From Bacteroidales bacterium (GTDB lineage Bacteria; Bacteroidota; Bacteroidia; Bacteroidales; UBA3824), in the NCBI GenBank assembly GCA_016286055.1, contig JAEERW010000010.1, positions 124,001 through 188,000 of the forward strand: a stretch of DNA of 64,000 bases, read 5' to 3'. This document shows positions 25,522 through 35,359 of this stretch, piece by piece. How positions within the stretch are numbered: the first letter of the stretch is position 1; every line of letters starts with the position of its first letter. The notes beneath the pieces were generated by a model. That model was not told where the DNA came from, did not search any database, and saw only the letters and a program-made list of their open reading frames with translations. The position numbers and the translations under genes are program-made.

Positions 25522-27345
25522 TTATCTGGAGTATGGTATGGGTTTTATTCCATATTGTTTGCGCATATCATCTATTAAAATCACTAGGTACTTACCACTA
25601 CTCAATTCGTCTTGTGGAATACTAAAAAACTCATCAAATCCTGTTTGTAATGCATTGTTAAAAGAATTTATTCTATCATTTTCATTATACGGATTAGACG
25701 CAGTACCCATTAAAGTGGTTTCCAAAAAAATTACATTGGCATCTTCTTGTCCAGAAACATCAGATGTATGTGGACGTACAGCCAAAAAACAATGTCTTGG
25801 AATCAATACTAATCCAACGTCTAAACCTATTTTTTTGTAAATTGATGCGAGAAGGCAACTGCCATCTACACAATTTGCTTGATTATTGTTGATGCATTGG
25901 TCAAAAAATCTTACGTATTGGCTTGCTACCTTTGGATCACTTGACGAAGTGTTGGTTATACTACTATATCGAGTGTTTCTAAGAGCAAAATATTCCCATA
26001 TCCAATACATTTGGTTTATTACATCTTGTTTTGTTTTTTGATTACCAACAAATTGACGAGTATTATCCCATGCAAGACAAGATTGTAATATTTCATCAAT
26101 TTTTGGATTATCTTCGTTTACATAAGAACAGAATAACCATTTTGTATTAACAACGTTGTTGTTTTTATCTAAAAAACCGTACACACAATCATTAATGCTG
26201 TGATAAATTATTCGTTTTGTTATACGTTTAACTACCTTATTGTTGGCTTCTAAGACAATATTTAGGTTGAAAAAACCTGGTTGGTCTGCATTCAGTAGAG
26301 CATCTTGTTTCCAGTTTATTATAGGAGCCCAATTCCAATCTTTATCTTCAACCTTATCAGTTGTAACTGTTTCTTCCAAAACCGTTTTGTCCATAAACTG
26401 ATTGGCATCTATAGTTAGTGTTATTTTAGCACCCACAGCATCTTTCGGTACTTTTATGGTAAGACACTCAGGGAGTTCTCTAAAATATGAACTGAGGAGA
26501 TGCATATAAGTGAAACTTGGATAGAATTCATCACTGATATAATCCCATTTAATATCCCAATCTAGTGAAGTAAAATTTGTTGGGTCATTATTGACATTTT
26601 CACTGTCGTTACCATCCTTTGCGAGATAATTCCACTCGGAACCATCAAAAATGTAGGAAATGCCGTCAGTGGAGTTGTAATACGCCCAATTAGTTTTTGG
26701 GTTAATTGGTGCAGTTGATAGTTCACCTTTCCACACAATACCTAAACCATTTTGCCCGGGTTCACCATCATTGCCGTTTTTAGCAAGATAGTTCCAATTT
26801 GTGCCGTTAAAAATGTAGGCTATACCATCTGTCGTATTGTAATAAGCCCAATTTTTTTTAGGGTCTGTGGGAGAAGTTGATAGTTCACCTTTCCAAACTA
26901 TGCCTAAACCATCTTGACCGTTAATACCATCTGTACCATTCTTAGAGAGATAGTACCATTCTAAACCGTTGAAAATGTAGGCTATACCATCTATCGTATT
27001 ATAATAAGCCCAATTAATATTGGGGTTTGCGGGTGCCGTTGATAGTTCACCTTTCCATATTATACCTAAACCATTTAAACCATCTTTGCCGTCATTTCCA
27101 TTAACTCCGTTCTTGCCATCTTGAGCCATAACTTGCCAAGAACTGCCGTCAAAAATAAACGATTGCATTTTCTGTGTATCATAATATGCCCATCCAACCT
27201 CAGGATTAGGTGGTGCACTATCTAACGAGCCTTTCCAAATTGGCACCTTGTACTCAACCATAGTGATTTCTTCTTTTTTACAACTTGGCATAGCCAATGA
27301 AAAAAGAAGAAATCCCAATAAAATGGTAAATGTTAAATGTCTCAT
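25522..27345 (-). CDS. Lipoprotein with four repeats, collagen-like linkers and a transglutaminase-like domain
   Basis: 607 residues. Lipoprotein signal with lipobox MPSC (Cys 22). Residues about 35-250 hold four copies of a roughly 54-residue unit, each with IxWKGxL, PxxxWAYYxT, a FxGxxW element and a Gly-rich end such as NGNDGKDG or NGTDGING that reads as short collagen-like G-x-y. The second half (about 260-607) has a probable beta-sandwich followed by a transglutaminase-like core: CVDGSCLLASIYKKIGLD (about 490) and RHCFLAV supply Cys and His, but the exact catalytic set cannot be confirmed by eye. It is a surface or periplasmic lipoprotein; adhesion or peptide/glycan crosslinking are possible roles. 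It is monocistronic, with a terminator behind it and AT-rich DNA (27346-27612) in front. Confidence 0.75.
   Translation of the reverse strand: MRHLTFTILLGFLLFSLAMPSCKKEEITMVEYKVPIWKGSLDSAPPNPEVGWAYYDTQKMQSFIFDGSSWQVMAQDGKNGVNGNDGKDGLNGLGIIWKGELSTAPANPNINWAYYNTIDGIAYIFNGLEWYYLSKNGTDGINGQDGLGIVWKGELSTSPTDPKKNWAYYNTTDGIAYIFNGTNWNYLAKNGNDGEPGQNGLGIVWKGELSTAPINPKTNWAYYNSTDGISYIFDGSEWNYLAKDGNDSENVNNDPTNFTSLDWDIKWDYISDEFYPSFTYMHLLSSYFRELPECLTIKVPKDAVGAKITLTIDANQFMDKTVLEETVTTDKVEDKDWNWAPIINWKQDALLNADQPGFFNLNIVLEANNKVVKRITKRIIYHSINDCVYGFLDKNNNVVNTKWLFCSYVNEDNPKIDEILQSCLAWDNTRQFVGNQKTKQDVINQMYWIWEYFALRNTRYSSITNTSSSDPKVASQYVRFFDQCINNNQANCVDGSCLLASIYKKIGLDVGLVLIPRHCFLAVRPHTSDVSGQEDANVIFLETTLMGTASNPYNENDRINSFNNALQTGFDEFFSIPQDELSSGKYLVILIDDMRKQYGIKPIPYSR
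26596..27243 (-). repeat. Four tandem ~162-base coding repeats
   Basis: Protein residues about 35-92, 93-146, 147-200 and 201-250 of the lipoprotein are copies of one unit. Copies 2-4 are close to each other (shared GLGIxWKGELSTxP and WAYYNxxDGIxYIF); copy 1 is more diverged. Their DNA is similar enough to suggest recent duplication. Confidence 0.85.
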
Positions 27346-31616: not shown

Positions 31617-33143
31617 TTATTGATATACCTCCACCGCTTTAATCACTTCCACTGCGCTCTCACCATTATCCAATGCCGAAAGAATGTCGAAAACCTTGTC
31701 GCTCCATCCGCCAATGAGATAAACGCCTGAATCTGTAATTTTTAGTGGCGACTGACCATAGCCGACAAGGTCAAAAAAGTAGAGTTTGGCGTTTGGTGCT
31801 ATTTGGCGGTAACGATTCCAAGACCTTTCAATAGAAGTGTTTCCTCCCGTGGAATTCCACAATTGACAATCAGTGAAAAACATCACCTTATCGATAATGA
31901 TTTTATTTTCAACAAGATAATCAATCACTTTGAAACCATTGGTTGAAAATCCAACTCTACTGTTTAATTTGCGCAATTCGGTTGTCGACTGCAAAATATT
32001 GTCGCCGGGCATATTAACCACCTTCCAACGGTCGCCAAAAATTCCCGAAACCACTCTGCGACAGCGACTTTTGAGCAACATCGCCAACATTAGACCTATA
32101 TCGTAACATTCAACGGTGCTGCGTGGACTTATGGGATGGCACATCGAGCCGCTCACATCACACGCCAAAAGTACGCTCGTATCAGCATCAAAACCTTCAA
32201 TGTTGGCGGCGGAATGTTTTACGGCAAGTTCCAATGCCGACATCAAAAACGGCGTGTCGGGCGAGTCGATTTTTGTGAGTTCGCGGTATGCCGAGAGGAA
32301 ACGGAAAGGCAATTGTTTAGACTTTGCCACTTGGTCGGCATCGCTCAAAATCGAAGCCACTATATTGATTTTTTCAGCCGAAACTTTTGATTCAAGAATG
32401 TTCCTGAGATTGCGCAGAAGTGCCATATAGCCAAGCCGTCCGCTGATAATCAACTCCTCCCATTTTTGACGGAAGGCGGCGGATTTCAGTTCGGGTGACT
32501 CAAATTTTTGCTGTCCGAGGGCGGAAAGTTCGGTTTCCCAAGTGTAGGGAGTTTCAAGTTTGCGGTCGGTTATCTTATTGAAAATCAACTGTTGTGCATC
32601 GTCCTTCGCCTTTGGATGAACAAGAAACAATGCATCACGGAGTTTCACTTCGAGATTGTCGCGGTTGTATTTTGCAAACTGATATTCGTCAAAACGGTTG
32701 AACGCCTTTTGCAAACCGTTCTGAATCTGACGCGAAAGTTTTTTGAGTTTTTTCTCGCCGTCCTGAGGGTTGCAAACTTGGTAACACATAAGGAGTTCCA
32801 TAATCTCGTCGGCACGGAGGACGCATTTTTCAACGGTACGCGCCACAAGGTTGTCGCCGTTGTGGACTTTTGCCAAAAGGGTAACGAGCAAAAGAGGTAC
32901 ACTTCTGAGATTCATCTCGTTGCGGGTGTAAACGGCAAGTTTTGCCACAAATTCGGGCGAAACTTTTTTAACCAAATTAAAAATGCGCAACATCCTCTCG
33001 TCGTTTTTTTCATAAAACTTGTTGCTGAGTGTGGAGGTAACCACGGCAGTGTAAAGTTCCATTTCGGGCGACATCACGTATGCTTTTTCGCCCTCGTAGT
33101 TTTTGATTTCGCTCTGTTCGCGCAACATAGAATTAAAACTCAT
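31617..33143 (-). CDS. rsr: Bacterial Ro60 homologue (TROVE-vWA RNA-binding protein)
   Basis: 508 residues. A TROVE/HEAT-like ring domain fills about residues 10-315, with AVYTRNEMNLRSVPLLLVTLLAK (split here as ring helices near 70-92) and MALLRNLRNIL (240-250). A von Willebrand factor A domain follows from about 322, with a complete MIDAS start, D329-x-S331-x-S333 (CDVSGSM). This is the layout of animal Ro60 and Deinococcus Rsr, which bind misfolded or Y RNAs in the ring and work with exoribonucleases in RNA quality control. No signal peptide. The 332 bases directly upstream hold two Y-RNA-like elements on the same strand. The gene symbol follows the Deinococcus name; the neighbours nadE and GNAT give no extra hint. 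RtcB, a frequent partner, is not seen here. Confidence 0.9.
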   Translation of the reverse strand: MSFNSMLREQSEIKNYEGEKAYVMSPEMELYTAVVTSTLSNKFYEKNDERMLRIFNLVKKVSPEFVAKLAVYTRNEMNLRSVPLLLVTLLAKVHNGDNLVARTVEKCVLRADEIMELLMCYQVCNPQDGEKKLKKLSRQIQNGLQKAFNRFDEYQFAKYNRDNLEVKLRDALFLVHPKAKDDAQQLIFNKITDRKLETPYTWETELSALGQQKFESPELKSAAFRQKWEELIISGRLGYMALLRNLRNILESKVSAEKINIVASILSDADQVAKSKQLPFRFLSAYRELTKIDSPDTPFLMSALELAVKHSAANIEGFDADTSVLLACDVSGSMCHPISPRSTVECYDIGLMLAMLLKSRCRRVVSGIFGDRWKVVNMPGDNILQSTTELRKLNSRVGFSTNGFKVIDYLVENKIIIDKVMFFTDCQLWNSTGGNTSIERSWNRYRQIAPNAKLYFFDLVGYGQSPLKITDSGVYLIGGWSDKVFDILSALDNGESAVEVIKAVEVYQ

Positions 33144-33167
33144 CTTCGTAAAGGTTTGAATGTTAAT

Positions 33168-33267
33168 AAAAAAAACGGTGCAACAAGCGCGGAGACCTTA
33201 ACAATTCAGGCGAGCCTTTCGACTCCCTCCTGATCCCAAACGAAGGAATTCTCCACTACGGCAACCG
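33168..33267 (-). ncRNA. Y-RNA-like element B, proximal to the Ro60 gene
   Basis: Minus strand, about 92 nt plus T-run. The ends pair: CGGT (33267-33264) with ACCG (33179-33176) and GC (33262-33261) with GC (33181-33180), leaving a single bulged T at 33263. After an internal loop (CGTA on the 5' side, GCTTGTT on the 3' side) GTGGAGA (33256-33250) pairs with TCTCCGC (33195-33189). The middle contains a hairpin ATTCC/GGGAT and a second one CAGG...CCTG enclosing GAGTCGAAAGGCTC. Eight T follow the stem (33175-33168), like an intrinsic terminator, 24 bases before the Ro60 ATG. The bulged lower stem followed by GUAGUGG resembles metazoan Y RNAs. Expression is not shown. Confidence 0.65.
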
Positions 33268-33276
33268 TTATATTAT

Positions 33277-33356
33277 AAAAGGCAGTGCAACAGGCGCAAA
33301 GAGCGTGAACAGAAGTCTTGACAAACTCGAAGTAACTCTACGCTACGGCAACCGCC
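33277..33356 (-). ncRNA. Y-RNA-like element A, distal to the Ro60 gene
   Basis: Minus strand, about 76 nt plus four T. GGCGGT (33356-33351) pairs with ACTGCC (33286-33281) and GC (33349-33348) with GC (33288-33287), with a bulged T at 33350, the same place as in element B. After an internal loop (CGTA / CTGTT) GCGTAGAG (33343-33336) pairs with CTTTGCGC (33301-33294) over eight positions including two G-T wobbles. It shares the 12-base block CGGTTGCCGTAG and the 3' block GCGCYTGTTGCAC with B, while the loops differ. TTTT (33280-33277) follows. The pattern of conserved paired ends and variable middle is what paralogous Y RNAs show. Confidence 0.65.
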
Positions 33357-33395
33357 TAATTTTTTCAAAGAACAGTTTTCTGTTGTTTGACGCTG

Positions 33396-33437
33396 CAAAG
33401 TTATGGCAAAGATACGAAATCTTTTTGCGTAATGAAA
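33396..33437 (-). promoter_or_regulatory. Likely promoter of the Y-RNA/Ro60 unit
   Basis: Two -7 matches in tandem on the minus strand: TATCTTTG (33414-33407), with TTTC 19 bases upstream (33437-33434), and TAACTTTG (33403-33396). A weaker alternative, TTTG (33399-33396), 22 bases, GTTCTTTG (33373-33366), would place the start within a few bases of element A. No separate promoter is evident between element B and the Ro60 ATG. Confidence 0.55.
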
Positions 33438-33475
33438 AAAATTTTTGAGAAAATTTTAAATTTTACCCAAATGTT

Positions 33476-35359
33476 TTATTTCACCACCTTAGCCTTCAAC
33501 TCCAAATATTTCCTTGTGAAATATGGCTGAATTGCCGATTCGCGGTAGTCGAAACCGTAGGCGCGGCGGGTAACGGCAATGATGGGCGGGGCTTGAATAC
33601 GTTTTGAGATTCCCATACCTTTGAATAATTTGTACCAACGTTCAAGGTCGGCAACAAACGATTTGGCATCGGGAAAATGCTGATGGATAATGTCTTCGGT
33701 AAGGTCGCTGGGGTCGCCGTGGTTGAGGTATGCGGCAAGGTTGCCATCGAGATAATGTTGCAGAATGTCGGCAAGCGGAGCGTGATTCCACCATTGTTGC
33801 CAAGCCTCAAAAAGACGGTCGTGATAAGGATAGATAAGCGGGTCACCCAGACCCTTATCAACAGATTGATTATCTGAAAGTTCGGCAGATGGTTTTAGGG
33901 TCAGCACCTCAGCAGGAACAATCTCGCCATTGCGGTTGATAAATCGGCAAAGGTCGTAGACGGTATGTTTCCAAAGGTCGCCCAAGGCAGCGAGAAAACC
34001 TGCCACATCGCCGTAGAGAGTAGCGTATCCAACGGTTGTTTCGGTTTTGTTGCCGTTGTTGGTAAAAACGCCTCCCCAAGCACTTGAAATGGCAGCCAAA
34101 ACCCTTGCGCCACGGTCGCGGGCTTGAACATTCTCCATATTAAACGATGTTAGGCTAAGGGTTAATTCATCACCGTCGGCATTACGCGAAACAAGTCCAT
34201 TTATCTGACTGTAAGTAAGTTCCGCGCTTTCTTGAATTGGCACAGAGGTATACCAGCAACCCAGATTATTAGCAAGTTTTTCGGCAATTCCGATAGTGGT
34301 TTTTGAGTTGAACCGCGACGGCATATTCACAAGCAAAACATTATCCTTGCCAATTGCCTCCACATAAAGCGCCGCCGCAAGGGTAGAATCCACTCCACCA
34401 GACGCACCAATAACAACGTGCTTTAAACCGCACTGAGCCATATAGTTACGTATACCATAAACAAGCGTATCGTGAATATCTTGAATTTCGGCATTGGGCG
34501 TAAAACCCGTTTGAGTGGTGCAAATAAGTTTTCCGTTGGCATATTCAAAATCTACATCCTCCTCGGCATACATTTTTGAATGGGCAATAATTTCGCCCTC
34601 GGCATTCCACACAGCCGAACTGCCGTCAAAACAGAAAATTGTCTTTCCATTGTTGTGCAAGCCGAGACCGTTGACATAAAACACAGGTTTGCCGAGCGTT
34701 TTGGCGTGAGTCGAAAATTTGCGGTTGCGAATACCGTTTTTACCTGCCGTAAAAGGTGAGTAACTAATGTTAACCAACACATCTGCACCCACTTGACTCA
34801 AAATTTTCAAAGGTTTTAAATCATAATCATCGTCCCAACCGTCTTCGCAAACAGTTACTCCAAACTTTACACCGTTGATTTCTTGCAAAGGAAACATTTG
34901 AACATCCTCGTTAAGTTCAGAAGCCCTTGCTGTGGCGGTAAGGTTGTCAAAAAAATGCCTTGGTTCTTCAAATTCGCGATAATTGGGCAAGAGTGTTTTA
35001 ATGCGGTATTCGGTTTTGCCATTGGTAGCAATGCAGGCAACGTTCATTTTTGCCTTTCTGCCGTCGTAACCCTTGTGAGGAGCGCCAAAAACGCTCTCAA
35101 AAAACGCCACAGTTCCAAAAATGAGCGAAAAATTCTCGTCGGCTTCTTTGGCAAGCAGATTGGCGTAATACTCGCAGTCGTCGATAAAATCGTTCTCTTC
35201 CCACTTGTCGCCGATAAGGTAGCCGGGAATCGCCATCTCGGGGAGAATCAATAAGTTAACGCCGCTATTTTTGGCACGTTTGGCAGCAGCAGCGCATTTA
35301 TCATAGTTTTTTGCCGGATTTCCCGGTTCAATGGTTATTTGCGAATATCGTATTTTCAT
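33476..35359 (-). CDS. nadE: Glutamine-dependent NAD(+) synthetase
   Basis: 627 residues; two domains. The N-terminal nitrilase-type glutaminase (about 1-270) has the Glu-Lys-Cys triad in LPEMAIPG, KTLLPNYREFEE and VTVCEDGWDDD. The C-terminal synthetase has the ATP-pyrophosphatase loop GASGGVDSTLAAA (about 313-325). It makes NAD from deamido-NAD, ATP and glutamine in the cytoplasm. The gene has its own promoter at 35380-35410 and is upstream of the Y-RNA/Ro60 unit on the same strand. Confidence 0.97.
   Translation of the reverse strand: MKIRYSQITIEPGNPAKNYDKCAAAAKRAKNSGVNLLILPEMAIPGYLIGDKWEENDFIDDCEYYANLLAKEADENFSLIFGTVAFFESVFGAPHKGYDGRKAKMNVACIATNGKTEYRIKTLLPNYREFEEPRHFFDNLTATARASELNEDVQMFPLQEINGVKFGVTVCEDGWDDDYDLKPLKILSQVGADVLVNISYSPFTAGKNGIRNRKFSTHAKTLGKPVFYVNGLGLHNNGKTIFCFDGSSAVWNAEGEIIAHSKMYAEEDVDFEYANGKLICTTQTGFTPNAEIQDIHDTLVYGIRNYMAQCGLKHVVIGASGGVDSTLAAALYVEAIGKDNVLLVNMPSRFNSKTTIGIAEKLANNLGCWYTSVPIQESAELTYSQINGLVSRNADGDELTLSLTSFNMENVQARDRGARVLAAISSAWGGVFTNNGNKTETTVGYATLYGDVAGFLAALGDLWKHTVYDLCRFINRNGEIVPAEVLTLKPSAELSDNQSVDKGLGDPLIYPYHDRLFEAWQQWWNHAPLADILQHYLDGNLAAYLNHGDPSDLTEDIIHQHFPDAKSFVADLERWYKLFKGMGISKRIQAPPIIAVTRRAYGFDYRESAIQPYFTRKYLELKAKVVK

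Follow-up and report, generated by a model that had tools for sequence, protein, structure and literature searches.

Probable Y RNA Genes Beside Ro60 in a Bacteroidales Genome and Their Relatives in Bacteroidota and Phages

Introduction

To my knowledge, bacterial Y RNAs have been the subject of experimental study in only a few species. Chen's survey of 2014 reportedly found a tRNA-like domain in at least one Y RNA of each species.

Passages of the literature on Deinococcus describe a Y RNA that, with Rsr and PNPase, makes up RYPER, and passages on Salmonella describe Y RNAs in tandem within an operon, rsr-yrlBA-rtcBA (PMC7790460). The model offered there for D. radiodurans and Salmonella has the Y RNA gating Ro60 and tethering PNPase, while its tRNA-like domain might inhibit an anticodon nuclease. 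Metazoan Y RNAs, as passages on them relate, have a bulged basal stem that adjoins a second stem. Ro60 particles immunoprecipitated from Bacteroides thetaiotaomicron included Y RNAs, according to a passage in a review (PMC11277228, citing Greiling 2018).

The DNA considered here, called the window throughout, is a stretch of 64,000 nt (positions 124,001 to 188,000 of contig JAEERW010000010.1) from Bacteroidales bacterium GCA_016286055.1, a draft assembly (G000) of 36 contigs, 99% complete. It contains two tandem elements upstream of a Ro60 gene that, judged by sequence comparison, are very probably the genes of bacterial Y RNAs, partners of the adjoining Ro60, and belong to a large and little charted family found beside Ro60 in the phylum and in phages. 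Like YrlA and other Yrl RNAs, the pair adjoins a Ro60 gene and is closed by a basal stem; unlike them, the copies lack a tRNA-like domain, match no Y RNA family of Rfam, precede ro60, and lie in a genome with no match to RtcB. Like the metazoan RNAs, the pair has a bulged basal stem beside a second stem, and the fold of its Ro60 matches those of Xenopus and human, but the Rfam Y_RNA model finds no match and, of a likeness to GUAGUG, only CGUAG is widely kept in the family. B. thetaiotaomicron is of the same order and, by the review's statement, its Ro60 has bound Y RNAs, a likeness that may or may not extend to the type of Ro60.

Results

The Locus

The gap between nadE and ro60 (33475-33144) is 332 bases long and holds two structured elements on the minus strand. 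The initial annotation had described just such a gap before a TROVE-vWA gene; its coordinates are exact and the domains were confirmed. The ro60/rsr homologue (31617-33143, minus strand) encodes 508 amino acids, in which a TROVE domain (PF05731, E 8.2e-29) is joined to vWA_Ro60 (PF25045, E 1.5e-8); the protein has both the domains and the fold of Ro60/Rsr. Its AlphaFold model (mean pLDDT 82.9) matches 13 PDB chains at E<=0.001, with E-values from 4.5e-18 to 2.5e-11, all of them Ro60, Rsr or TROVE proteins, and structure comparison shows the resemblance to Xenopus and human Ro60. Profile alignment places the histidine of its LVHPK opposite that of LSH in the Xenopus and human proteins; that part of the alignment has scores of only 7.1 and 4.8 bits, and the LSH histidine is one that I take to matter for Y RNA binding. 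Two viral contigs encode a Ro60 69% identical to that of the window.

Each element has a basal stem in which one U is bulged, then a CGUA internal loop, then a second stem, together with UUACUUCG, which in the second copy reads UUCCUUCG. In Y RNA 1 (Y1; 78 nt, 33280-33357, minus strand), helix 1 is formed by 33357-33348 with 33288-33280, the bulged U lying at 33350; the CGUA loop occupies 33347-33344; and helix 2 is formed by 33343-33336 with 33303-33296. Y RNA 2 (Y2; 98 nt, 33173-33270, minus strand) has a core like that of Y1, with its bulged U at 33263, and folding gives it a hairpin capped by GAAA in mid-element. As judged by eye, the Y2 copies of this genome and of one congener (G008) keep a hairpin with a GAAA or GCAA loop despite changed letters in the stem.

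The initial annotation had pointed to two blocks identical in the copies, and they lie where it put them: CGGTTGCCGTAG at 33354-33343 and 33267-33256, GCGCYTGTTGCAC at 33297-33285 and 33190-33178. The end stem with bulged T, the CGTA loop and the second stem that it described are likewise present in both copies, the second stem with one mismatch in each (U.U in Y1, A.G in Y2), as are the T-runs, TTTT (33280-33277) at the end of Y1 and T8 (33175-33168) at the 3' end of Y2. Nine bases separate Y1 from Y2. Since the spacer from Y2 to the start of ro60 (33144-33172, minus strand) is only 29 bases long, Y2 and ro60 may be read as a single transcription unit.

Elsewhere in the window, the minus strand at 25522-27345 carries an open reading frame of 607 amino acids with four WKG-L-P-WAYY repeats and glycine-rich, collagen-like linkers between them.

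Covariation of the Shared Core

The stability of single sequences on folding is not beyond chance: z is -1.56 for Y1 and -1.75 for Y2, with 14 and 9 of 200 shuffles, respectively, folding equally well, and the leader (33406-33144) is not significant either (z -1.08). The case for Y RNAs therefore rests on comparison.

Seventeen pairs were examined in an alignment (A4) of 49 elements, both window copies included. The structure was derived from the same alignment and all rows except window Y2 were chosen for helix 1 pairing, and with that caveat 91.6% of 832 pair cells are standard, as against 64.2% after shuffling; changes on both sides occur in 250 cells as against 80; and the covariation score is 0.775 as against 0.243. 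Both-side changes are seen at 16 of the 17 pairs; shuffling gives 13.1 on average and attains 16 in 6 of 500 trials. When the structure is slid, the share of paired cells drops to 41.6-53.1%. Helix 2, on which there was no selection, has 86.2% of its cells paired and changes on both sides at all eight pairs. The rows consist of 48 taken from 61 non-redundant compact elements plus window Y2, which escapes the search pattern (its loop reads TTCCTTC) and was added by hand. One element (L063:5952-6048) was removed as misaligned on passing from alignment A3 to A4, and twelve were omitted by hand with no criterion noted (L052, L057, L058, L060, L064, L065, L068, L070, two of L072, L083 and L095).

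Helix 1 was also examined free of such selection, with nothing but the motif TGTNRC (N = T, C or A) to locate its 3' side. All six arm pairs form in 89 of 165 elements, with 55 different arm pairs, whereas 1000 swaps of arms average 7.0 and never exceed 15. The other 76 lack full pairing, in part, no doubt, where the first TGTNRC motif is the wrong one. The 165 are what is left of 237 regular expression matches after removal of eight loci (mostly duplicates), of matches with no 3' motif in range, and of identical stretches; among all 237, duplicates included, the basal-stem bulge is T in 233. The bulged basal stem of bacterial Y RNAs is thus found both in the window pair and in its relatives. 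Covariation across homologous loci, which the initial annotation had set beforehand as a test of its reading, is found by either route.

Arrays of Elements Around Ro60

A scan of genome contigs gave 408 relatives, and the best 80 of these (L018-L097, several of them near relatives of each other) make up the wider set. By their record titles they are Bacteroidota except for two Balneola, and elements with the same core adjoin ro60 in these loci. A covariance model of the shared core, R1, from which elements with a tRNA domain were mostly kept out by a length limit, gives Y1 65.5 bits (E 3.8e-19) and Y2 60.9 bits (E 1.3e-17), both sequences being within its training set; at E<=1 it finds nothing else in the window.

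R1 was run on 76 of the 80 loci, those of the window's own genus (L018-L021) being left out. There are 301 matches at E<=0.01, and all 300 listed lie on the ro60 strand, one to eight in each of 75 loci, a figure that is not a count of independent finds because many of these loci supplied training elements. The sole locus without a match, L044, begins at the edge of a contig, 77 bases ahead of its ro60 match. The window and 75 of 76 named relatives thus have elements adjoining a Ro60/Rsr gene. Among the matches listed, which amount to about four per locus, 54 of the 75 loci have three to six elements, and the median gap between neighbors is 12 bases (215 pairs).

The arrangement of these arrays bears on whether the pair might instead be a cis-acting leader of the ro60 mRNA, to which Ro60 would bind and repress its own translation, no separate small RNA being of consequence. 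Y2 ends 29 bases before the ATG and the elements are upstream of ro60 in the genus loci compared, as a leader would have it, but of the 300 elements listed 113 are upstream and 187 downstream of ro60. Moreover, one genome (G323) has a six-element array on a contig (C1) separate from that of ro60 (L194:3050-5246), and another (G351) has two elements directly upstream of rtcB, also on a separate contig (C37; L195:2710-2983). Elements on both sides of the gene and arrays on other contigs argue for action in trans. I consider a leader pure and simple improbable; autoregulation is possible as a role added to that of a Y RNA.

The middles of the elements vary. Among the 300 listed, 77 are permuted tRNA-like (T-arm before D-arm), 73 have a T-arm only, 11 are D-like only and 139 are neither; in shuffled letters a T-arm turns up 14 times in 300. 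A T-arm occurs in 60 and the permuted form in 52 of the 75 loci of named relatives. By the same pattern search, Y1 and Y2 of the window have neither T-arm nor D-arm, so the pair is without the tRNA-like domain typical of bacterial Y RNAs, and no third element appears in the genome at E<1 among the 150 candidates scored. The single T-arm match within the genus, in Y2 of G008 at a conserved CTTCG stretch, is read as chance.

Elements are also found in viruses. With R1, 45 viral ro60 loci yield 81 matches at E<=0.1, every one on the ro60 strand; by eye, 37 of the 45 loci (some near-duplicates) have one at E<=0.001 and eight have none at that threshold. In phage csAssE-Sib (OR575929.1, L178:2096-2226) an annotated tRNA-Tyr (2124-2196) lies inside a weak R1 match (E 0.0064) upstream of the TROVE gene, and looks as though the stem of a Y RNA enclosed it. 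A passage of PMC10136315 classes the TROVE gene of the related phage crAss001 as early. In Xanthomonas phage 10KY502B (OQ622092.1, L185:2326-2459) a recorded tRNA-Thr (2331-2398) lies inside an R1 match and overlaps a match to RF02553 (2341-2445); ARAGORN called no tRNA at this site, which may be a Y RNA annotated as a tRNA.

Distribution Across the Genus and Order

The distribution of the elements follows that of Ro60. Of 59 relatives searched, 11 have ro60, all of the window's genus, and R1 is positive in eight, all among those 11; in each of the remaining three (G004, G012, G014) a contig end truncates ro60. Among 393 genomes of the order, six have ro60, five at >=59% identity and one (G073) at 35%; R1 matches at E<1e-5 occur in exactly those five, with no match in G073. 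Two matches in genomes with no Ro60 match (G173, E 0.0057; G224, E 0.0097) are borderline and read as chance. Weak copies may be missed by these searches, which scored only the best 10 (order), 72 (relatives) or 150 (four genomes of the genus) candidates per genome, with stricter filters in the first two. Elements are in tandem upstream of ro60 in G000, G001, G007 (contig C288), G008 and G010, and single in G002, G007 (contig C255) and G017; in G015 the contig begins at its element.

It might be supposed that what stands between nadE and ro60 is a pair of ordinary intrinsic terminators or attenuators, given the stem followed by T8 at Y2 and a T content just 3' of the elements that is raised in the arrays (0.43 vs 0.29). 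Yet only 110 of 298 elements have at least five T in the nine end bases; near-invariant loop letters, the bulged T and two covarying helices are not features of terminators; strong R1 matches come only from Ro60 genomes; and of the genus loci compared, the window alone has nadE upstream (by eye). I therefore find this explanation barely credible. Still less credible is a mobile repeat family lying beside ro60 by chance, as tandem copies and a sequence upstream of the cassette that differs between most genus loci (by eye) could suggest, but for the confinement of strong matches to Ro60 genomes, the borderline pair aside, and the lack of any match at E<1 beyond the tandem pairs in G000, G001, G008 and G010 (R1 at E<=10, 150 candidates scored in each).

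The Control Region, WYL Proteins and RtcB

Upstream of Y1 lies a box, TATCTTTG (33407-33414, minus strand), that fits TAnnTTTG, which I take to be the promoter consensus of Bacteroidota. By eye, the same position reads TAYCTTTG in five loci (L001, L003, L004, L006, L013) and TACCATTG in L007. The first bases of the box are overlapped by a palindromic, operator-like site, TACGCAAAAAGATTTCGTA (33413-33431, minus strand), which differs by one mismatch from TRCGCAAANNNNTTGCGYA and is the sole site within the window at one mismatch or fewer.

In 59 of the best 80 loci the palindrome TRCGCAAANNNNTTGCGYA occurs, with up to two mismatches, no more than 1200 bases upstream of ro60; a stricter pattern finds it in 22. 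There are 79 sites in 90,803 upstream bases as against 29 in 461,637 bases from other parts of these loci, an enrichment that is not blind, since the consensus was written after sites in part of these loci had been seen. In 17 of the best 80 loci (a count by hand) a second palindrome stands 57-122 bases upstream of the promoter-proximal one.

Of 84 loci, 38, the query's own among them, encode a WYL-WCX protein (PF13280, PF25583) of at least 45% identity, in some cases partial, and 23 have rtcB (25-38% identity). Within the genus a close WYL gene is on the ro60 contig in G001, G008, G010 and G017, and rtcB, in a search of 20 genomes, in G001, G002, G007, G008 and G010. The window's genome has no close WYL gene, its matches being of 27% and 33%, the latter with a stop, and no match to PF01139, hence no rsr-yrl-rtcB operon. 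The WYL protein is a candidate to bind the palindrome.

Comparison with Known Y RNA Families

At gathering scores, Rfam finds only two tRNA genes in the window. At E<=10 it gives nine matches within 33100-33500, all far below cut-offs and none to a Y RNA family; one of these, to Clostridiales-2, overlaps Y2 with an E-value of 0.78 and was rejected. No Y RNA match reaches the cut-offs in the window and 11 further loci, where there is one tRNA match (L076).

The relatives stand closer to YrlA. They match its model, RF02553, through the permuted tRNA domain, with 34.4 bits for an element of L093 and at most 50.4 bits at places in G351, G323 and G209 that coincide with R1 matches, the cut-off being 69; neither the window pair nor any relative reaches it. 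The G351 elements lie beside rtcB, again as in YrlA systems. In the TROVE loci of Rhizobium, D. gobiensis, Rhodococcus and phages of Xanthomonas and Caulobacter, RF02553 has E-values from 1.1e-4 to 4.8e-10 (best 56.1 bits, below cut-off). R1, run on nine such TROVE loci outside the wider set, is strong in phages CcrColossus and 10KY502B, weak in csAssE-Sib and not significant in HGTV-1 (E 0.11); the other five (D. gobiensis, P. silesiensis, Rhizobium, Rhodococcus and A. silvanus) have no match at E<=1. YrlA matches three of these five; YrlA of Rhizobium is found by RF02553 but not by R1. One R1 match of 10KY502B coincides with YrlA, while in CcrColossus, a Caulobacter phage, the two models match at different places. 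YrlA matches elsewhere in the window's genome are not taken as Y RNAs; none overlaps R1, and the same loose search is positive in 13 of 14 control genomes, by my reading as would be expected if real tRNAs cross-match.

The locus of D. gobiensis (L177) shows by eye a layout like that of the window: a stem, a bulged T, two pairs, TGAAG, a second stem, GTTCCTTC and GCCTGTT, upstream of the gene. It differs in having one YrlA match (E 3.7e-8) with a tRNA-like part and no R1 score, as against the two compact elements of the window.

Discussion

The initial annotation had proposed a Bacteroidales Y RNA pair, and that reading is supported by covariation, by the tracking of Ro60 across genomes, and by relatives that match YrlA below its cut-off. 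It gains further support from the Y RNAs that, by the review's passage, were contained in the Ro60 particles of B. thetaiotaomicron. The annotation's remark that it knew of no description of tandem Y RNAs in the group needs trimming: Y RNAs are in print for B. thetaiotaomicron and tandem ones are not special to the group, being present in Salmonella, and what stands is that no account of arrays was found. Three other amendments arise from the relatives and the window itself, that three to six elements are typical, that they lie on either side of ro60, and that the window pair is without a tRNA-like domain.

A single transcript would probably begin at the TATCTTTG box beside the palindrome and run through Y1, Y2 and ro60, and its processing would free the two RNAs. 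Ro60 is predicted to bind the common handle (the basal stem, the bulged U and the CGUA loop), leaving the variable middles as an interchangeable working part that may gate Ro60 or direct it on damaged or misfolded RNA. Since its middles are not tRNA-like, the window pair probably gates Ro60 or is stabilized by it, rather than acting as a tRNA mimic. For the window pair I infer transcription unit, processing, binding and function from structure, covariation, linkage and co-occurrence with ro60, and the core shared with relatives that match YrlA; taken whole, I hold the proposal to be highly likely.

A broader picture is more speculative and, in its entirety, rather unlikely. In Bacteroidota and their phages Ro60 could be a display platform, with a constant handle that presents an exchangeable set of RNA modules, as many as eight per locus (permuted tRNA mimics, forms with a T-arm alone, and compact hairpins), switched by a WYL-type sensor through the palindrome and coupled to RtcB in some species. 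In the conflict of bacterium and phage the modules might act against nucleases that cut tRNA, as decoys or as guides, and the window's genome would then represent a stripped, two-RNA form.

Bacterial Y RNAs, their tandem occurrence in Salmonella and their presence in Bacteroides Ro60 particles are known already from the passages cited, and the novelty of the window's Y RNAs is limited because those of B. thetaiotaomicron are in print. The open literature gave one account of Y RNAs in Bacteroidota, a passage of the review (PMC11277228), and none of arrays, the palindrome or a WYL link; Chen's 2014 survey lay outside this scope and may list some of them. What is new, as far as could be seen, is how large the arrays are and how they are built of modules; the palindrome, perhaps linked to a WYL protein; a Ro60 system whose Y RNAs are all compact; the failure of the window and 11 further loci to give a Y RNA match at Rfam cut-offs; and a stripped genome that has neither a tRNA-like Y RNA nor RtcB nor a close WYL gene.

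Passages of reviews (PMC11277228 among them) discuss commensal Ro60 particles with Y RNAs as triggers of lupus autoimmunity, and for that reason the RNA partners of Ro60 in gut Bacteroidota matter. R1 finds elements around 75 named Ro60 genes, about four to the locus, and in most of the viral loci tried, which opens their roles to testing in cultured Flavobacterium, Mucilaginibacter, Dysgonomonas and Prevotella, and the palindrome and WYL gene offer a handle on the inducing signal. The window pair itself, with no tRNA mimic and in a genome without RtcB, provides a test of which part of the Y RNA model needs the mimic.
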